A stretch of 41,889 nucleotides of DNA, taken from positions 1 through 41,889 of the forward strand of contig JAMXLF010000037.1 of NCBI GenBank assembly GCA_024281055.1, read 5' to 3'. The translations under genes were made by a program, and so were the position numbers. Positions 3,824-26,354 of the stretch are shown in pieces; position 1 is the first letter of the stretch; each line of letters starts with the position of its first letter. The notes under the pieces were generated by a model. That model was given only the letters and a program-made list of their open reading frames with translations, was not told where the DNA came from and ran no database searches. Source of the DNA: Geobacteraceae bacterium. Lineage in GTDB: Bacteria > Desulfobacterota > Desulfuromonadia > Geobacterales > Geobacteraceae.

Positions 3824-4299
3824 ATGACCTCCTGTTCTTGGATGGACTCCGGTTTAACTGCGTGCTTGTGTTTTTACGTTCCCTTTTTATTCTCTTTGCT
3901 CCCTTCCGTTCTCCTTTCCGGCCTGTTGGCCTGACATCCAGAGTGTCTTCATTTTGGCCGAGCTTCACATGATAACGTCATGATATTTAATAAGAATTTC
4001 GGCGTTGGTCGCCAAGCCCCGACGCTTTTCAAGCATAGCATTGCATGTGTGGTATGCAAGAGGACGAGGAATGATTATTTGTTCGATCCGAAAGATGGAA
4101 AAAGGCCATCCGGATCCGGACGACCGAATACACGATCCGATAACTCCCTTGGCGGACCCGATACAGTCCGGCGAGTTTCTCCGCGCCCGACTTCTTGATA
4201 AAGTCTCGTTTGTGGTTGAAATTATGTCGAAATTAAAGTAATATCCGTTACGGTAATTCCGGTTACCCAATTACAGTCCAACCTGAAGGACAAAGCGAC
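3824..4299 (+). other. intergenic stretch with no recognisable gene
   Basis: 476 bases between the divergent lipoprotein and ATPase genes. The part near 3824 should hold the lipoprotein promoter, but I see no clean -35/-10 pair. Around 3980-4241 several short frames overlap, including one ending ...VVEIMSKLK at 4241, but none has a good ribosome-binding site or a familiar motif. The base composition is lower in GC than the flanking genes, so this may be decayed or acquired DNA. Confidence 0.5.
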
Positions 4300-5619
4300 A
4301 TGAAATTCTACAACCGCGCCAACGAGCTTGCCGAACTTGGAAAGTTGTATGAACAGGCGAATGAAGCCGCCCGGATGACGGTCATAACCGGGAGAAGGCG
4401 GGTCGGCAAAACAATGCTGGCCCTTGAGTTTGCAAAGGGCCATCGCTCACTCTATCTCTTCGTTTCCAAGAAGTCGGAACCGCTGCTGTGTGCCGAATAT
4501 CTGGAAGAGATCAGGAAGACATTTGAAGTTCCTGTGTACGGCGAGATAAAACACTTCCGGGAAGTTTTTGCCTTACTTCTTGATCTGGCCAAGAAGGAGC
4601 GCTTCACTCTGATCATCGATGAATTCCAGGAATTCTATGGCATCAATCCGGCGGTCTATTCCGAAATCCAGCATCTCTGGGACGTGAACAAGTCAACGTG
4701 CAGAATGAACCTGATCTGCATCGGTTCCGTTTACTCCCTCATGCACCGGATCTTCGAAGAAGCAAAGGAGCCTCTCTTTGGCCGCGCGGATCGCATCCTG
4801 TTGCTCCGGCCCTTTTCCATCAAGAACATCCGGACGGTGCTGCGCGATTACAAAAGAGACGACCTGAAGACGCTCTTCGACTGCTACGCCCTGACCGGCG
4901 GACTTCCGAAGTACCTGGAGATCCTCGTAGCAAGCGGGGCTTTTTCGTATGACGAGATGCTCAAGCTGATGCTCAACGAGCACTCTCCTTTCATCAATGA
5001 AGGGAAGAACCTCCTGGTCGAGGAGTTCGGCAGGGAGTACGGTACGTACTTTTCCATTCTGGAGCTGATAGCGAGCGGAAAAACAGCCCGGACGGAGATC
5101 GAATCCATTCTGGAGATCCACGCCGGGGCGTACCTGGCAAGGCTTGAGCAGGATTACGGGATCATCTCCCGGCGCAAGCCGTTCAATGCCCGCCCCAACG
5201 CCCGGCTGCTGAAATACTTCATCAACGACAATTTCCTGAATTTCTGGTTCCGGTTCATTTTCCGCAACCGGTCTGCCGTGGAAACGGGGAACTACGCCTA
5301 CATCAGGGAAGTCATCGACCGGGATTATGCTACCTGGTCGGGATTCATGCTGGAACGCTACTTCCACGATCTCTTTGCCGAAAGCGGCGATTACAATGTC
5401 ATAGGTTCCTACTGGGAAAAGGGAAATCAGAACGAAATTGATCTGGTGGCGGTCAACGATCTGAAGAAGAAACTTGTCGTGGCGGAAATCAAGATGAACA
5501 AAGCGAGGATCAATATGGATGCCCTGAAGAAGAAGGGTGAGAGGCTGCTGGAGTCGTATCAGGGGTATGAAGTGACGTGGCTGGCGCTTGGGCTGGAGGA
5601 TGCTGCGGACTATCTCTGA
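4300..5619 (+). CDS. AAA-type ATPase with C-terminal DUF234 nuclease-like domain
   Basis: 439 residues. The N-terminal P-loop domain has Walker A GRRRVGKT (31-38) and Walker B TLIIDEFQEF (103-112), of the archaeal-type STAND/AAA ATPase family. A winged-helix-like middle follows. The C-terminal region resembles DUF234, with EID at 379-381 and AEIK at 395-398: D381, E396 and K398 fit the D...ExK spacing of PD-(D/E)XK nuclease folds. The ATG at 4300 follows GAAGGA by 9 bases. Its role is not established; family members are often solitary, patchily distributed and sometimes linked to mobile elements or defence. It has no operon partner here. The ATPase call is firm, nuclease activity is inference. 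Confidence 0.85.
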   Translation: MKFYNRANELAELGKLYEQANEAARMTVITGRRRVGKTMLALEFAKGHRSLYLFVSKKSEPLLCAEYLEEIRKTFEVPVYGEIKHFREVFALLLDLAKKERFTLIIDEFQEFYGINPAVYSEIQHLWDVNKSTCRMNLICIGSVYSLMHRIFEEAKEPLFGRADRILLLRPFSIKNIRTVLRDYKRDDLKTLFDCYALTGGLPKYLEILVASGAFSYDEMLKLMLNEHSPFINEGKNLLVEEFGREYGTYFSILELIASGKTARTEIESILEIHAGAYLARLEQDYGIISRRKPFNARPNARLLKYFINDNFLNFWFRFIFRNRSAVETGNYAYIREVIDRDYATWSGFMLERYFHDLFAESGDYNVIGSYWEKGNQNEIDLVAVNDLKKKLVVAEIKMNKARINMDALKKKGERLLESYQGYEVTWLALGLEDAADYL

Positions 5620-5765
5620 AATTATGATTTTGAGGTGATCAGAAAGCCTGATGTAGCGTCCTCCTGTGTCAAGTATCATGGCTTGTATCGCAGCGTCATT
5701 GATGGTAATATTTTGAAGGCCTCGGTCTATCCCGCCACGTAAGTCAGTTCCGGAGAATAATTCCT

Positions 5766-7457
5766 ATGCCATCGTCATTCCTCTGGGAGGCGCTCGGAGG
5801 GCTTGGTCTCTTTATCCTCGGCATGAAATCCATGTCCGAAGGGCTGCAAAAAATTGCCGGTGAAAGACTCCGGCGTCTGCTGGAAAAAATTACCGGCAAC
5901 CGCCTGACCGCGGCGCTTATGGGAAGCTGTCTCGCTTCGCTGCTCCAGTCCAGCAGTGCCGCATCGATTCTCGTGGTAGGGTTTGTCAATGCCGGTCTGA
6001 TATCGCTTTATCAGGCCCTCGGCGTTCTCCTCGGCACGGGGATCGGTACCACGATAGCAATACAGTTCATCGCCTTCAAGATCTCGTCCCTTGCCTTGCC
6101 CGCAATCTTTATCGGTGTCATCCTCAAGTTTTTCGGCAGAAGACGGAGATGGGTATACACGGGGGAGCTCCTTCTGGGCGCCGGTCTGGTATTCCTCGGG
6201 CTGCAGACGATGGAAGCCGGTTTTGCCCCCGCCAGCCAGAGCACAATCGCTGCCGTGTTCCATAGCAGTTTTCTTTCCTGGCGCGTCTCCGCGGTCCTGT
6301 GCGGGACCGTCCTGACCTTCCTCATTCAATCGAGCAGTGCGGCCACCGGGATTGTCATCGCCATGGCGGGGAGCGGACTGGTGGGGTTCGAAACCGGCGT
6401 TGCCATGATTATCGGTGAAGTGCTGGGGACTTCCCTGATAGCGATCATAGCAACCATAAGCGGTACGCTGGCCGCCAGGCGAACAGCGCTCATCTATCTC
6501 TGCATGAATGTTTTCGCCGTCTGCCTGGTGCTCCTCTTCTTTCATGCGTTCCTGAACATCGTGCATCTTGTTTCCCCCGGCGACGCCGAATTGACGGTTA
6601 TGCAGGGGATGAATCCCGCGGGGCTTCTGCGTCCCAACATAGCCCGCCACCTCGCCAATGCCCACACGATTTTCAGTGCCCTGAACGTTCTGCTCTTTCT
6701 CCCCCTCCTCGGCTTCTTCGCCCGCTCGGCAATGGTCATTCTTCCCGGCAGGGAAGGGGAGATCGATATCGAGCCCCGTCCCAAATTCATCGATCAACGG
6801 GTTATCAATACCCCCACGATCGCCTTCCTGCAGGCCAAGAACGAAGTCAAGCGGATGGCGGAGATTGCCGAGTCCATGTACGCCGACCTGGTGGAGCAAT
6901 TCTCCCACTACGATCCCAAACGGTCATTGCAGATCAGGCAGAAGGAAGAGACGCTGGATGTGCTGCAGCGGGAGATTTCGGCCTTCCTGGTGACGCTGTC
7001 GCGCCAGACGGTGCCCCAGGAGGTTTCCGTCGAGATCCCGACCACGCTCCATCTCATCAACGAACTGGAGCATATCGGCGACCAGAGTGAGGACGCGGCG
7101 TTGCACCTGCAACGCAAGAAGGAGGACAATGTCTACTTTTCCATGGCCGCCATGGATGAGCTGAAGGGGATTGCCGCCACCGTGAGGGAAATGGTGCGGC
7201 TGGCCGTGGCATTTCTCGAAAATCCCGCCGGGGAAACCGTCACCAGAATGCAGGAACTCAAGGTCAAGGTCGGACAGTTGCAGGAAATCAGCAAGAACAA
7301 CCATCTCAAGCGGCTGAGCAACGGCAGGTGTACCGTGATTGCCGGACTTCTTTTCGGCGACATCATCGCGTGCTTTGCAAAGATCGCCCAGTTTTCCGTG
7401 AATATCGTCGAATCAGAAAGGGATTTTCTCGATGTCTCAGCCAGCGGCAGCGATTGA
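5766..7457 (+). CDS. Na/phosphate cotransporter family protein with PhoU-like tail
   Basis: 563 residues. The membrane half carries the two inverted QSSS repeats typical of the NptA/type II Na-Pi family: QSSSAAS from residue 61 and QSSSAATG from residue 188, each followed by a G-T-rich loop (GTGIGTT, GEVLGTS). About eight hydrophobic segments lie within residues 1-330. The last 200 residues are hydrophilic and helical like PhoU (EIAESMYADLVEQF, LINELEHIGDQSEDAALH), a common fusion in bacteria. It probably takes up phosphate, or exports or balances it; the substrate is inferred from the family. Its 3' end overlaps the phosphatase gene by 26 bases, tying phosphate transport to polyphosphate or ppGpp turnover. 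Confidence 0.88.
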   Translation: MPSSFLWEALGGLGLFILGMKSMSEGLQKIAGERLRRLLEKITGNRLTAALMGSCLASLLQSSSAASILVVGFVNAGLISLYQALGVLLGTGIGTTIAIQFIAFKISSLALPAIFIGVILKFFGRRRRWVYTGELLLGAGLVFLGLQTMEAGFAPASQSTIAAVFHSSFLSWRVSAVLCGTVLTFLIQSSSAATGIVIAMAGSGLVGFETGVAMIIGEVLGTSLIAIIATISGTLAARRTALIYLCMNVFAVCLVLLFFHAFLNIVHLVSPGDAELTVMQGMNPAGLLRPNIARHLANAHTIFSALNVLLFLPLLGFFARSAMVILPGREGEIDIEPRPKFIDQRVINTPTIAFLQAKNEVKRMAEIAESMYADLVEQFSHYDPKRSLQIRQKEETLDVLQREISAFLVTLSRQTVPQEVSVEIPTTLHLINELEHIGDQSEDAALHLQRKKEDNVYFSMAAMDELKGIAATVREMVRLAVAFLENPAGETVTRMQELKVKVGQLQEISKNNHLKRLSNGRCTVIAGLLFGDIIACFAKIAQFSVNIVESERDFLDVSASGSD

Positions 7458-20626: not shown

Positions 20627-21421
20627 TTACCGCTTATGGCATCGGCCAAGAATCGGGTAGGGATCTACCGGTATCAGGGTGTCCTTGCCGATATGCAGGA
20701 GGGTGAGGTGGAGATGGGTCGGTGACCGTTTCTTGTGGGCATTGAAACCGGTCCTCCCCACCGTTGCGATCCGGTCGCCGGGTTTGACGATGGTGCCGAG
20801 GCCGACCATAAGTTCACGGTTATGGGCGTAGTAGACGAGGGTTTCGGTTGAGGGGTCGTAGATCCAGAGGTATTTCCCGCCGCGCAGCCCGCTTCCCGGT
20901 TCCCAGGCCGTTTCCAGCGCGACGACGACGCCGCCGGTCAGGGAGAGGACCGGTACCGGTTGGCCGGTCCGGTCGTCCCGCTCGTCCTGGTCGCGGTCGC
21001 GGATGAAGATGTCGAGGGCCGGGTGTCCCTTGTGCCGGTTGCCGTCGAGCCAGTCGTAGCCCCGGGGCTCGTAACCGTGCCTCCCGCCGCCATTGATCGC
21101 CCGCAGCGTGTATCCGGCGAGGGGGAACACCCACTCCGACCGGTCGTAGTTCTTACCGCCGTGGCGGTAGTAGTAAGAGCTGATGGCGGGAAGGAGGCGG
21201 GACAGCTCATCCCGCGCCTGCCGCCGGGCGATCTTGCCGTCCCGCACGCTTGTGTTGAGTGCATTGAATGCGGCGCACGGCTCGCAGGTCATGGCCGGCG
21301 GTGTCTCACGACCGGTCGAATACCGTCCATAGCCAGAGGCGCTGATTCCCGGGGAAGCTGAGGCGGCAAGGCCGAAGATGGCGAGCAGGGCGAAGAAGAG
21401 TCGTTGAAAATTCGAGGACAT
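20627..21421 (-). CDS. M23-family metallopeptidase, periplasmic
   Basis: 264 residues from the ATG at 21421, supported by GGAAGG upstream and a signal peptide (MSSNFQRLFFALLAIFGLAASA). The frame extends upstream through a terminator, which argues against the longer start. The LytM/peptidase_M23 domain has the first zinc motif KGHPALD (HxxxD) and the second THLHL (HxH), so it should be an active zinc endopeptidase that cuts peptidoglycan cross-links. The N-terminal half (about 50-130) has a conserved-looking CEPCAAFN segment and many aromatics of unknown role. It is transcribed alone. Confidence 0.85.
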   Translation of the reverse strand: MSSNFQRLFFALLAIFGLAASASPGISASGYGRYSTGRETPPAMTCEPCAAFNALNTSVRDGKIARRQARDELSRLLPAISSYYYRHGGKNYDRSEWVFPLAGYTLRAINGGGRHGYEPRGYDWLDGNRHKGHPALDIFIRDRDQDERDDRTGQPVPVLSLTGGVVVALETAWEPGSGLRGGKYLWIYDPSTETLVYYAHNRELMVGLGTIVKPGDRIATVGRTGFNAHKKRSPTHLHLTLLHIGKDTLIPVDPYPILGRCHKR

Positions 21422-21465
21422 GTACCTTCCGCTGGCGAACAGGCCGGTGGTGCCTGTCTGAAAAA

Positions 21466-21491
21466 GAAAGGCCCGCAACGTGCGGGCCTTT
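21466..21491 (-). terminator. terminator after the lipoprotein gene
   Basis: Perfect 10-bp stem AAAGGCCCGC / GCGGGCCTTT with a 5-base loop, followed on the reverse strand by CTTTTT. It lies directly after the stop of the 21493-22014 gene. Confidence 0.85.
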
Positions 21492-21492
21492 G

Positions 21493-22014
21493 TCATTTCT
21501 TGCGTTCCAGCTCCAGGTCGAGATCTTTCAGCCGCTCGATGCTCTGGCGCAATTCCTTGTTTTCCCGGGCCAGGGAGAGATTCAGGTCTTTGTAGGATCT
21601 GACCTGACGACGCAACTCCTGGGCCTTCTGGAGCTTTTCCGTGTGTTCATCGAGAAAATCGGCGACGGGGGCAGCCTGGGCAGTCCAGGCACTGTCGGGG
21701 TATTCGTTCTGGAGCCTGCCGAGCAGCTTCAACGTTGTGGCGATGTTGTTACGGTCGAGTTCCGTGTCGATTGACAGGAGCGCCAGCCGGAAGAGGGCTT
21801 CATCGGTGATCCCGGGAACTCCTTTTTCGGCGCAGATCTGTTTGAGCAGCCTGGCCGCATTGTAGGGATTGCCCTTTTGGAGCGACTCTACCGCATCGGA
21901 CAGCTTTTGTTTCTGGGAGTAACGCGCGACGAAACCCTGGCCCTTGAGGGAGGCGCAGCCTGAAGAAGCCAGGGTTAGTGCCGTAACAACCGCGATGATG
22001 ACCTGTCTTTTCAC
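21493..22014 (-). CDS. lipoprotein with helical repeats and C-terminal coiled coil
   Basis: 173 residues. Lipobox LASSGC (lipid-modified Cys 20). The middle (AVESLQKGNPYNAARLLKQIC... LLGRLQNEYPDSAWTAQA) resembles TPR-type repeats of outer-membrane lipoproteins such as the BamD/YfgC style. The last 50 residues are a charged coiled coil (LARENKELRQSIERLKDLDLELERKK). It overlaps the GGDEF gene by 4 bases, so they are co-translated; it may be the envelope partner of that protein. I cannot assign a function beyond a probable scaffold. Confidence 0.75.
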   Translation of the reverse strand: MKRQVIIAVVTALTLASSGCASLKGQGFVARYSQKQKLSDAVESLQKGNPYNAARLLKQICAEKGVPGITDEALFRLALLSIDTELDRNNIATTLKLLGRLQNEYPDSAWTAQAAPVADFLDEHTEKLQKAQELRRQVRSYKDLNLSLARENKELRQSIERLKDLDLELERKK

Positions 22015-23330
22015 CGAGCACCTCTTCCCCGGTTGATGAAATAATTGCTGCCCGACATTCCCTTGAGACGGTCCTTGATCGCCAGGGCGGCCTCGGCAAT
22101 TTCCGTGGCCGAGCCGTATTCTCCCTTGCGACAGACGAGCGCTGCAATCGAGATGGTCATGATCGGAAACGTCCGATGCACCCCATAGCGATCGACCCCT
22201 TCGATTGCGCCTCTGGTAAGATCCTCAGCGCTATATTGCTGTACGATCATGGCGCTGAAGGCGTCGATCACCGTTTCGCAGATGGCGGCTGCCTTCTCCG
22301 GCGGAACGACCATGACAAAATCATCGCCGCCAACGTGGCCGACAAAAGCACTCTCTCCGGCAAGATTAGTGACCGTCTCGCAGATGATGTCGCCCGTCAT
22401 CTTGATCACGTCGCTGGCCTTGATGTAGCCGTAATGGTCGTTGTACGCCTTGAAGTTGTCCAGGTCGCCATAGCAGACTGCAAACGGTTCGTCTTGTTCG
22501 AGTTTCTGCGTGAGAAGCCGCTCGATGGCGATATTGCCGGGAAGCCTCGTCAGGGGGCTGGCGTCCAGGCACATCTGCTCCAGGTCCTTGAGCTTTTTCG
22601 CCATCCGGGCAAAGTCCTCGGCAAGATCCCCGATCTCGTCTCCGGGAGAGATCTGAAGGTTGAAATCGAAGTCGCCCGCCGCTATCCGGTGGGTCCCTTT
22701 TTTCAGTTTGCGCATCGCGGACGATATGTTGTAGGCGAAGATGCCGGCGACGGAAAGGGCAAGGATGAAGCCGGCGAGCGCGAGCACCAGGGTGAGCCGG
22801 ACGGTCGTCGTTTCGCGCCGGTCCGCTTCGGTTAGCTTGTCGCCGAGGAGCAGTTGACGATTGGCGGAGATTGTCTGGATGTCGTTGAAGACGCGTTCGG
22901 TAATCACCTTGTCGGGCGCGGGGGGGGTGCCGGATGTCGAAGCGAACAGTGCCTCTATCCGCTGCCGGTAATCCTGATAGTCGGCGGTAAGCCGGGCGGT
23001 GAAGGCGTCAGGGCTCTTTTGTCCCATCTCGGCGATGATCTTGAGGAACTCCGCTTCCTTCCGGTGAAAAAGGTCCCGGAACTCGGGACTCTTGAGAATG
23101 AGGTATTTCCCTGCGTACCGCTCCTGGGCGAGCAGCGATTCACGCAGCTGGTTGGCCGCGTTGATCACCGGCAGGTCCGTCATGATGATATCTTTGGCCG
23201 TCTTGTTGAGGGAGTATAGTCCGACAATCGAAAAGACAAGGGCAGCCGTGGTGAAGAACAGCATGGCTGCGTAGCTGACGATGAGCTTTTGAACGAGTGT
23301 GAGTCTTTTACGTGATCTTTTTGTATTCAT
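22011..23330 (-). CDS. membrane HAMP-GGDEF protein, Hypr-like (possible cGAMP synthase)
   Basis: 439 residues from the ATG at 23330; the longer frame would begin inside the promoter. Two membrane spans (about 15-40 and 180-205) flank a periplasmic helical sensor, then a HAMP linker (AMRKLKKGTHRIAAGDF) and a GGDEF domain. The signature reads GGDDF (334-338), and the metal-binding YGDLDNFK and base-binding N of AYND are present, so catalysis is plausible. Where diguanylate cyclases have GHxxGD, this protein has GYIKAS: serine 306 aligns with PleD D344. The same Asp-to-Ser change marks Hypr GGDEF enzymes (Geobacter GacA) that make cyclic AMP-GMP. The inhibitory RxxD site is absent (GESA). The product is inference. 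It is co-translated with a lipoprotein and divergent from the ACIII-like operon. Confidence 0.85.
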   Translation of the reverse strand: MNTKRSRKRLTLVQKLIVSYAAMLFFTTAALVFSIVGLYSLNKTAKDIIMTDLPVINAANQLRESLLAQERYAGKYLILKSPEFRDLFHRKEAEFLKIIAEMGQKSPDAFTARLTADYQDYRQRIEALFASTSGTPPAPDKVITERVFNDIQTISANRQLLLGDKLTEADRRETTTVRLTLVLALAGFILALSVAGIFAYNISSAMRKLKKGTHRIAAGDFDFNLQISPGDEIGDLAEDFARMAKKLKDLEQMCLDASPLTRLPGNIAIERLLTQKLEQDEPFAVCYGDLDNFKAYNDHYGYIKASDVIKMTGDIICETVTNLAGESAFVGHVGGDDFVMVVPPEKAAAICETVIDAFSAMIVQQYSAEDLTRGAIEGVDRYGVHRTFPIMTISIAALVCRKGEYGSATEIAEAALAIKDRLKGMSGSNYFINRGRGAR

Positions 23331-23622: not shown

Positions 23623-24138
23623 ATGAAACTTTCGTGGCTTATCGGCGCGCTCGCCGTTGTGGCTGTCGCTCTTTTCGTCGTCCTGGCGTGGATGTACATT
23701 CTCCCGATGGATCTCCGGGACCGCTCACCGGTCCAGCCGATTGCCTTCAGCCATAAGGTGCATGCCGGTACGAACGGCATCCAGTGTCTCTTCTGCCACA
23801 GCTCAGCCTCGAAGTCGCCGGTTGCCAGCATACCGGCGGTGGCGGAGTGCCGGGCCTGCCACCTGTTCATCGCCCCGGATGCGCCGGAAATCAAGAAACT
23901 GATGGGATACTGGGATAGAAAGGAGCCGATCCCCTGGGTCAGGGTATACAGCCTGCCGGACTTCGTCTATTTCCCGCACATGATGCACGTCCGGGCCGGG
24001 CTTGGCTGTGCTCGCTGCCATGGCGTGGTGGCCACCATGGACCGGATCACCAGGTCCGTCAAGCTCAAGATGGGGTGGTGCCTGGACTGCCACCGGAAGC
24101 ACAAGGCCAGTATCGACTGCTGGACCTGCCACATCTAA
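23623..24138 (+). CDS. actA: pentahaem cytochrome c subunit of an alternative-complex-III-like enzyme
   Basis: 171 residues. One N-terminal membrane span (about 5-27) anchors a periplasmic domain with five haem sites: CLFCH 55-59, CRACH 76-80, CARCH 129-133, CLDCH 153-157 and CWTCH 166-170. Extra histidines (FSHKVH, FPHMMH, HRKH) can be the second axial ligands. This fits ActA, which passes electrons from quinol oxidation to the monohaem subunit or to soluble cytochromes. QrcA of sulfate reducers is a relative, but the downstream actD and actE homologues favour ACIII. It is the first gene of the operon, 17 bases before actB1. Confidence 0.8.
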   Translation: MKLSWLIGALAVVAVALFVVLAWMYILPMDLRDRSPVQPIAFSHKVHAGTNGIQCLFCHSSASKSPVASIPAVAECRACHLFIAPDAPEIKKLMGYWDRKEPIPWVRVYSLPDFVYFPHMMHVRAGLGCARCHGVVATMDRITRSVKLKMGWCLDCHRKHKASIDCWTCHI

Positions 24139-24155
24139 GTTAGATAGAGGGCCGC

Positions 24156-26354
24156 ATGAAACGGAGAACCTTTTTGCAGCTCGGCACGATGACGGCCGCC
24201 GCTTCCTGGCTTTCGGGGTGCCGCTCGGCAAACGAGAAGCTCATCCCCTACCTGACCCCGCCGGACGAGGGGGTGACTCCCGGCATGGCCGTATACTACG
24301 CCAGCTCCTGCCGGTTCTGTCCGGCAGGGTGCGGTATCCTGGTGCGGGTGTCGGAGGGACGGGCCAAGAAAATAGAGGGAAACCCCGCTCACCCCCTCAA
24401 CAGGGGAAAGCTCTGCGCCCGGGGCCAGGCCGTTGTCCAGGAACTCTACCATCCCGACCGGGTGACGCAGCCCCTCAAGCGGAGCGGTCCCCGCGGCTCC
24501 GGACAATTCACGCGGATTTCCTGGGAAGAGGGGCTCGCGCTCCTCACGGAGCAGCTCGGGAAGCTGCAACGGGAACGGGCCACGGACCGGCTGGCCCTGG
24601 TGACGCCGCCTCTCCGGGGAACCCTGGCGGAACTCGCGGCTGGTTTCATGCGTTCTTTCGGTTCCCCCCGGCACCTCTCCTACGAACTCCTCGGCCCCGA
24701 CTGGCTTCGCACCGCCGCGCGCCGCAGTTTCGGCCAGCCGAGCCTCCCGTACTACGACATCGCCGAGACCCGTTATCTCCTCAGCTTCGGCGCCGATTTC
24801 GTGGAATACCACCTGTCGCCGGTCCAGTACGGCTTCGCCTTTGGCAGGATGCGCCAGGGGCGGGACACGGTCCGCGGCCATTTCACCTATGTCGGCGGGC
24901 GCATGTCCCTCACCGCCGCCTCGGCCGACCGCTGGATGGCGGCCCGACCGGGCAGCGAAGGGATGCTGGCTCTGGGCATTGCCCGCCTGATCCTGGCCGA
25001 GTCTCTTTTCGACGCGGGTTCCCTCACTGCGAACGGCCTGCGGGCCGATGACCTCCTGCGCCGGCTGGAGGCGTACGATCTTGACCGGGTGGCGCATCTT
25101 TCCGGCCTTCGTCAGGATGTCATCGCGGAGGTAGCCAGGGAGTTTGCCACGACCCGACCGGCGCTGGCCATGGCGGGGGAGCCGGTCGCCTTCCAGACGA
25201 ACGGCCCGGATGCAGTCCGCGCCGTCCAACTGCTCAACGTGCTGGTGGGAAACCTCAACCGGCCGGGGGGAATCTACCCCGATGCCGGGGAGACGACCGG
25301 CCCCGAGGACTCATTTGCCGAGCTCCTTTCCCTGGTCGACAGGATGCTCGGTGACCGGATCAGTGTTGTCATGGTTCATGGTGACCCCGTGCACGCCGTT
25401 CCGCCTGCCACCGGTTTCCAGGAAGCGCTGGCGAGGGTGCCGTTTATCGCGAGCTTCTCCTCGCTCCTGGACGACACCGCCCTGCAGGCGGACTTGGTCC
25501 TGCCGGACCACGCTGCCCTGGAGAGTTGGGGAGACGTGATTCCCCTGGCCGGGACGCGGGAACCGGTGATCGGGCTCATGCAGCCTGTGGTAACGCCACT
25601 TTACGATACCCGCCAGTTCCCCGAGGTGTTGATGGCGACGGCCCGCGGGCTGGGGGGGACGATGGCGGCGGCTTTTCCCTATCAGTCGTACCTTGAGATG
25701 TTGAAAAGTTCGATTAAAAAGCGGGTCGGTCCTGCGGGTGGGGGCGATTTCGAAGTGGTGTGGGTGGATCTGCTCCGGCAGGGGGGGCTCTTCAAAGCAA
25801 ATAACGGCCAGGGGAAGTCGCTTCGATGGGCCGCGGGCGCAACTCTGCCCGACCCGGGCGAGCCCCGGTTTGCCGGGGATGAGAAGCAGTTTCCGCTCCA
25901 TCTGCAGGTTTACCCCTCCACCGCCTTCCTTGACGGCAGAGGTGCGCCGCTTCCCTGGCTGCAGCAGCTCCCCGACCCGATGACCACCGTGGTCTGGGAC
26001 AGCTGGGTCGAGCTCAATCCCGAAACCGCGGTCTGGCTGGGAATCTCTTTCGGCGACCTGGTGGAGGTGACCTCGCCTCAGGGCTCGCTGCGTCTGCCGG
26101 CGGTGATCTACCCCGGCATCCGCCCCGACACGGTGGCGATCCCGCTGGGGCAGGGGCACCACGGGGGAGGGCGTTACGCAAAAGGGAGAGGGGCGAATCC
26201 TCTTGCGCTGGTAGCGCTTATGGGCATTAACAGGGAACCGCAACCCGCCTGGAACGCCACCATGGTGCGGGTGACGCGGATTTCCGAGAAAGGCGAACTG
26301 GTGACCGCCGGAAACCCACAGGGGAGCTACCGGAGCGAGCTGATAGAGATATGA
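24156..26354 (+). CDS. actB1: molybdopterin-oxidoreductase-family subunit (ActB1-like)
   Basis: 732 residues. The N-terminus is a twin-arginine signal (KRRTFLQLG) ending in a possible lipobox (LSGC, C22). Next comes C52-x2-C55-x3-C59-x27-C87, the spacing that holds the first [4Fe-4S] cluster in catalytic DMSO-reductase-family proteins. The typical NPAHPLNRGKLCARGQA, a central alpha/beta region, and the C-terminal beta-barrel domain follow. In known ACIII complexes the equivalent domain carries no Mo cofactor and, as far as I know, no cluster, so these cysteines are unusual. I cannot identify a Mo ligand with confidence. Here B1 and B2 are separate genes, unlike the fused ActB of Rhodothermus. 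It probably sits on the periplasmic face, joined to ActB2 and ActC. Confidence 0.82.
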   Translation: MKRRTFLQLGTMTAAASWLSGCRSANEKLIPYLTPPDEGVTPGMAVYYASSCRFCPAGCGILVRVSEGRAKKIEGNPAHPLNRGKLCARGQAVVQELYHPDRVTQPLKRSGPRGSGQFTRISWEEGLALLTEQLGKLQRERATDRLALVTPPLRGTLAELAAGFMRSFGSPRHLSYELLGPDWLRTAARRSFGQPSLPYYDIAETRYLLSFGADFVEYHLSPVQYGFAFGRMRQGRDTVRGHFTYVGGRMSLTAASADRWMAARPGSEGMLALGIARLILAESLFDAGSLTANGLRADDLLRRLEAYDLDRVAHLSGLRQDVIAEVAREFATTRPALAMAGEPVAFQTNGPDAVRAVQLLNVLVGNLNRPGGIYPDAGETTGPEDSFAELLSLVDRMLGDRISVVMVHGDPVHAVPPATGFQEALARVPFIASFSSLLDDTALQADLVLPDHAALESWGDVIPLAGTREPVIGLMQPVVTPLYDTRQFPEVLMATARGLGGTMAAAFPYQSYLEMLKSSIKKRVGPAGGGDFEVVWVDLLRQGGLFKANNGQGKSLRWAAGATLPDPGEPRFAGDEKQFPLHLQVYPSTAFLDGRGAPLPWLQQLPDPMTTVVWDSWVELNPETAVWLGISFGDLVEVTSPQGSLRLPAVIYPGIRPDTVAIPLGQGHHGGGRYAKGRGANPLALVALMGINREPQPAWNATMVRVTRISEKGELVTAGNPQGSYRSELIEI

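Follow-up and report, generated by a model that had tools for sequence, protein, structure and literature searches.

A gene from a bacterium of the Geobacteraceae encodes a GGDEF-fold protein with serine in place of the base-contacting aspartate, raising the questions of which dinucleotide, if any, it makes and through what it receives its signal. The gene lies on contig JAMXLF010000037.1 (assembly GCA_024281055.1), whose 41,889 analyzed nucleotides are here called the window. An earlier note on this DNA had read the product, P0001, as a Hypr-like enzyme making cyclic AMP-GMP (cGAMP), bound to the membrane, with an input unlike that of GacA. We favor, with a probability of about 0.7, the reading that P0001 is a membrane-bound, Hypr-like hybrid dinucleotide cyclase whose active-site motif is GGDDF, predicted from sequence to make 3',3'-cGAMP and some c-di-GMP.

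Architecture of the locus

The features of the locus are as follows.

22011..23330, minus strand: P0001, predicted membrane-bound HAMP-GGDDF protein of 439 aa, homolog of GSU1937 (ORF, Pfam, homolog comparison)
22587..22739, minus strand: HAMP domain, residues 198-248 (Pfam PF00672, 43.5 bits, over the cut-off)
22023..22580, minus strand: GGDEF-fold catalytic domain, about residues 251-436 (Pfam and model)
22440..22442, minus strand: codon of Asn297 (PleD Asn335, GacA Asn339; guanine contact; alignment)
22413..22415, minus strand: codon of Ser306 (PleD Asp344, GacA Ser348; alignment)
22317..22331, minus strand: GGDDF motif, residues 334-338 (sequence and alignment)
21493..22014, minus strand: lipoprotein gene with lipobox SSGC, a helical TPR-like part and a C-terminal coiled coil (sequence, profiles, model)
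20627-21496: M23 peptidase gene, sharing 4 nt with the end of the lipoprotein gene
23623-26354: cytochrome c7-type and molybdopterin oxidoreductase genes, in divergent orientation to the cyclase gene

The P0001 reading frame runs from an ATG at 23330 to a stop at 22013-22011, and the protein begins MNTKRSRKRLTLVQKLIVSY and ends KGMSGSNYFINRGRGAR. HAMP and GGDDF are combined without an EAL or HD-GYP domain. The Pfam GGDEF match covers residues 259-357 (43.2 bits, over the cut-off), and a match to the 4HB_MCP sensor falls just short of threshold (26.9 bits; cut-off 27). Placement of P0001 in the membrane with a periplasmic part rests on the HAMP domain, the weak sensor match, hydrophobic stretches and the long helices modeled for the sensor part, all of which agree with the earlier claim of a membrane-bound protein with an input unlike that of GacA. 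Block pLDDT in the model is 91-98 over residues 261-430. Many solved GGDEF domains were matched by the modeled domain in VIA-align, among them 5euh (Z 21.3, rmsd 2.0, 154 residues aligned) and PleD (1w25; Z 19.9); the match of P0001 to the GmGacA fusion 6d9m (Z 19.6, rmsd 5.3, 198 aligned) covers a range that extends beyond the GGDEF domain. The M23 peptidase has no homolog among crude gene calls in 20 other related stretches and was therefore excluded from the module.

Active site of P0001

The segment DNFKAYNDHYGYIKASDVI of P0001 aligns gap-free on DHFKPVNDTYGHLAGDEVI of 3ign, which places Ser306 on the Asp of GHxxGD and, as the earlier note proposed, in the column of PleD Asp344. All 45 other family sequences in the alignment likewise have serine here; a lone or chance substitution is therefore ruled out. 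Metal positions Asp289 and Asp336 are present and the columns of the inhibitory RxxD read GESA, bearing out that the metal site is kept and the inhibitory site missing. The further claim, that the GGDDF signature is kept, stands for metal-binding Asp336 but not for the fourth residue, which is Asp in P0001 and Glu in GacA (Glu375 of GmGacA, the proposed general base; PMC6456294, eLife 2019). According to the same source, Ser348 and a GGDEF Asp form the "Goldilocks" site of GacA, and Asn339 contacts the base, guanine (PMC6456294). P0001 has neither the canonical diguanylate cyclase signature (Asp at PleD 344 plus GG[DE]EF) nor the GacA-type Hypr signature (Ser/Thr plus GGDE[F/Y], eLife 2019), its motif being GGDDF. 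The survey of Hypr proteins in that work counted only motifs taken as active (PMC6456294).

Membership in the GSU1937 family

In G. sulfurreducens, GSU1937, which has HAMP, Ser348 and GGDDF, was described as a second cGAMP synthase, with many homologs in Deltaproteobacteria (Tan et al. 2022, PMC8835794). Its deletion lowers a cGAMP reporter by ~25% on fumarate and 70% on Fe(III) citrate, and double deletion of gacA and GSU1937 lowers it by over 90%. When expressed in E. coli, the GacA-GSU1937 fusion F4 makes cGAMP and c-di-GMP, its GADDF form makes neither, and whole GSU1937 and three fusion constructs are inactive (PMC8835794). In the only other paper found to name GSU1937, its expression is reported as reduced in a gsu1771 mutant (PMC10599522). 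Other GGDDF proteins are mentioned, in the relevant passages of two papers, without a reported activity (PMC6205966, PMC12805831), and Bdellovibrio Hypr is the subject of two more (PMC9140294, PMC9302825).

These data bear on the possibility that P0001 is mainly a c-di-GMP synthase in which the serine merely weakens selectivity for GTP. The c-di-GMP level given by F4 in E. coli was comparable to that of GacA, the authors did not settle how selective GSU1937 is in Geobacter (PMC8835794), and P0001 keeps Asn297, all of which would fit; but deletion of GSU1937 lowers the cGAMP reporter in the native host, and we regard this alternative as improbable.

Inner deletion primers for GSU1937 (PMC8835794), translated in frame, give VQKLIAS and STPGSNY, which are the start and end of the family of P0001. 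VQKLIASY is found in family members L062 and L066, and TPGSNY in L064. In L171, L178, L168 and L167, one of the outer primers (24 nt) matches with 3-4 mismatches about 680-745 nt ahead of the gene start. The left inner primer sits on the gene start in L171 with 3 mismatches and in L168 and L167 with 5 each, and the right inner primer on the gene end in L178 with 4 and in L171 with 6. In 37 of the 50 loci searched, no primer matched with 4 or fewer mismatches; in the remaining 13, where several genes occur twice, the second outer primer was absent (9-10 mismatches). Identity of P0001 to the proteins at the primer sites (L058, L059, L062 and L071) is 54-61%, GSU1937 itself being placed through its primers. 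Strong family matches were found in 45 of 48 family genomes and were absent in G004, G035 and G039, with weaker domain-only matches left out of this count.

Genes beside the family gene at the primer-matched loci are, judging from their sequences, presumably nadC-, birA- and coaX-like. The birA and coaX genes of this genome are on contig C13, and its family genes are on C37 (P0001) and C35. Neither copy is at the nadC-birA place of GSU1937, P0001 having the cytochrome c7-type and molybdopterin oxidoreductase genes as neighbors instead; neighborhood is not family-defining. The C35 copy is a second GGDDF-lipoprotein pair (L185, about 4499-6336), with 54% identity to P0001. Given the location of P0001 away from the nadC-birA place and the presence of a second copy, its function may have drifted.

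P0001 is thereby assigned to the GSU1937 family: both share HAMP, the serine, GGDDF, and the lack of another catalytic domain, and the GSU1937 primers map to the family's start and end. The earlier identification as a Hypr-like cGAMP enzyme is largely upheld, insofar as a homolog is a published cGAMP synthase whose primers fit the family, but P0001 does not belong to the GacA branch.

Descent of the serine

GacA (GSU1658 / Gmet_1914, PDB 6d9m) resembles P0001 in having serine at the base-contacting position and Asp at the third position of the motif. It differs in having a receiver domain, no membrane part, a GGDEF motif with a Glu base, and I-site residue R393 (PMC6456294). Relationships were examined in a quick tree of 91 domains, with several long branches and no bootstrap. 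It samples 20 of the genome's 26 GGDEF domains, 14 of the 46 family rows and 23 of the 58 rows that lack the membrane part. The GGDDF proteins fall into a single clade of 71 (SH-aLRT 100), inside which the membrane proteins form one clade of 48 (SH-aLRT 95). Two proteins of this genome, L010 and L016, pair together among its other GGDEF domains (SH-aLRT 97). Forcing the membrane clade together with L010 and L016, a group named after the tree was seen, is rejected (p-AU 0.00018); the tree and this test rule out a position of P0001 in the GacA branch. The pattern points to two or more origins of the Hypr serine among GGDEF domains.

L010 (G000:C8:68037-68507; GGDEF) and L016 (G000:C95:2553-3011; GGDEY) have the Hypr serine in the same genome as P0001. 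A PDB search with L016 gives 6d9m as by far the closest chain (248 bits, next chain 114 bits), which makes L016 the nearest match to 6d9m found in this genome, and putative receiver and GAF parts can be read from its sequence.

The fewest changes of the PleD-344 residue on the tree number six. Membrane rows with Asn fall inside the serine-bearing membrane clade, and Asn therefore seems to be derived there; L126, which has Asn and no membrane part, falls outside.

Residue patterns across relatives

The residue census covered 141 aligned proteins, with L133-L166 (34 of the 80 loci of their set) left out; 16 domain-only matches were likewise left out of the relative search with 66 listed matches. 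We call relatives soluble if they are without the family's N-terminal part, and mean nothing more by it. At the PleD-344 column, 66 proteins have Ser, 57 Asp, 15 Asn and 3 Ala or Thr. The N-terminal membrane part of the family is present in 64 of 66 Ser, 14 of 15 Asn and none of 57 Asp proteins, and the two exceptions with Ser are a protein starting at a contig end (L255) and a gene in pieces (L256).

In the serine-bearing proteins, Asp289 is kept in 66 of 66 rows and Asp336, Asp337, Lys419 and Lys423 in 65 of 65 covered rows, with RxxD present in one of 66. The PleD Asn335 column holds Asn in 24 of these proteins, Gly in 18, Ser in 14 and Ala in 10, such that Asn is absent in 42 of 66, though P0001 keeps it. 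This column has Asn in 15 of 15 proteins of the Asn set and in 55 of the Asp set (Ser in two), counts biased in the part contributed by L087-L132, which were collected with patterns including FKAYNDHY. Among Asp rows from the phylum search, which were not collected by a pattern holding Asn335, Asn is present in 18 of 18. Fourteen membrane relatives (L087-L092, L199, L203, L204, L207, L208, L210, L212 and L215) have Asn at PleD-344 and keep Asn335. Three distant relatives, L258-L260, have GGDSF with Ala or Thr at PleD-344 and have lost Asp289; a lipoprotein gene is downstream in two of them.

A degenerate GGDEF domain, making no dinucleotide and passing its signal by binding or protein contact, might be read from the Asp that replaces the catalytic Glu in P0001 and from L258-L260, whose retention of the lipoprotein gene in two of three cases indicates that the gene pair can outlive catalysis. 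Against this, metal- and phosphate-side residues are kept in all 65 covered serine rows and the homolog GSU1937 is active (PMC8835794); we consider a loss of catalysis in P0001 unlikely.

A conserved lipoprotein gene and candidate input partner

The start codon of the lipoprotein gene (GTG, 22014) overlaps the stop of the cyclase gene as GTGA and its product has a C-terminal coiled-coil match, in line with the earlier suggestion of a coiled-coil lipoprotein co-translated with the cyclase. The spacing is -7 to +20 nt behind the cyclase gene in 30 of 30 loci (L057-L086), and a profile search finds the lipoprotein gene behind the cyclase gene in 45 of 46 family loci, the one miss (L257) being a cyclase gene split across two contigs. 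A chance neighbor is ruled out by this count.

The pairing extends beyond the family, to three of three loci from the order and to 22 of 25 membrane relatives from the phylum (misses L203, L212 and L221). The profile count, made on a small set, accepted E values as high as 10; of the phylum matches, 20 were at E 7e-4 or better and two, the weakest counted (L216 and L218), at 0.01. All six membrane relatives from the pattern search (Aminicenantes, Halieaceae and Desulfobacterales; L087-L092) have a match at E 1e-5 to 9e-4. A simple search for an ORF with a lipobox found the gene behind L088 and L090, and the other four are profile matches (E 1e-5 to 6e-5). By comparison, none of 40 pattern-search relatives without the membrane part has the lipoprotein gene in flanks of up to 6 kb; the flanks of 18 phylum loci without the membrane part cover only ~0.5 kb, and absence there says little.

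In an alignment of 12 lipoproteins, the lipobox Gly-Cys and TDEA.FRL are invariant, and the C-terminal consensus is ENKELR..IE.LK.LDLELE. The model consists of helices throughout, the C-terminal one spanning 64 residues, and its confidence is low (3 sequences, pLDDT 60.9, pTM 0.33). Weak TPR/YfiO-like and coiled-coil matches were the only ones obtained, which ruled out membership in a named Pfam or NCBIfam lipoprotein family. Under the sorting rule, alanine after the lipid cysteine directs a lipoprotein to the outer membrane, and the alanine found here suggests that location. Because the pairing is conserved, the lipoprotein is a likely input partner of the cyclase, its role being a guess. A literature search on the names GSU1936 and GSU1938 found no paper on them in Geobacter, and the word "lipoprotein" is absent from the main text of PMC8835794.

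Two other lipoprotein genes were observed. A third copy in this genome (G000:C63:10582-11145; L223 about 4083-4709) has no GGDDF gene among ORFs of 130 aa or more within the surrounding 9 kb. A distant relative (L261 2144-3076) has a long C-terminal part, which we take to be L,D-transpeptidase-like.

A similar arrangement is that of YfiN (DgcN), an ordinary c-di-GMP cyclase encoded with the OmpA-like lipoprotein YfiB. Both pairs combine a HAMP-GGDEF membrane cyclase with a co-encoded lipoprotein. Similarity of P0001 to YfiN is distant (NCBIfam DgcN, 47.6 bits against a cut-off of 325), and its lipoprotein, TPR-like with a coiled coil, is unlike YfiB.

Riboswitches in the genome

Genome G000 has 26 GGDEF matches and 41 GEMM-I riboswitch matches; by a stricter count its GEMM-I elements number 40, which is the highest figure in 47 family genomes, the runner-up having 30. 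Fifteen of 30 elements read (L027-L056) are of the ACTAAACC/ACTCAACC form. We assume that the A in this form is GEMM-I position 20. The change A20G turns selectivity of a GEMM-I riboswitch from cGAMP to c-di-GMP (PMC6456294). The 15 elements would then be of the cGAMP (GEMM-Ib) form, and this genome seems well supplied with readers of cGAMP. Of the genomes outside the class, 11 of 14 serine-bearing ones lack a GEMM-I match, while seven of eight Asn-bearing ones have at least one. The messenger of those serine proteins, if they make one, must be read otherwise.

Proposed mechanism and significance

If P0001 is a hybrid cyclase as we favor, a periplasmic helical sensor, probably with the co-encoded lipoprotein, would set the HAMP domain and the dimer. 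Ser306 in the active dimer would let each half-site take ATP or GTP, Asp336 would hold the metal and Asp337 would replace the usual glutamate base, yielding 3',3'-cGAMP with some c-di-GMP. Lacking the RxxD site, P0001 should escape the inhibition by c-di-GMP seen in GacA, and its product may be read by GEMM-Ib-type riboswitches of the same genome. Several observations weigh against this reading: the base is Asp rather than Glu, and whole GSU1937 and three fusions were inactive in E. coli; Asn335 is gone in most serine relatives, though not in P0001; and most serine genomes outside the class are without GEMM-I, with P0001 itself away from the place of GSU1937.

A broader and more tentative proposal, which we think rather less probable than not, is that HAMP-GGDDF and the lipoprotein make up a single conserved envelope sensor, encoded by two genes and present in several phyla. 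The lipoprotein would control a cyclase lineage that gained its purine-promiscuous serine independently of GacA, and a preference for different base pairs, extending to ATP-only products, may be found in members where Gly, Ser or Ala replaces Asn335 or where Asn replaces the serine.

P0001 adds a homolog to a published type of cGAMP synthase, and its novelty is modest, consisting of the separate origin of the serine, the loosening of Asn335 and the conserved lipoprotein. This homolog of an Fe(III)-linked cGAMP synthase type comes from a genome whose set of GEMM-I riboswitches is unusually large, and the lipoprotein is a candidate input partner for this type of cyclase.
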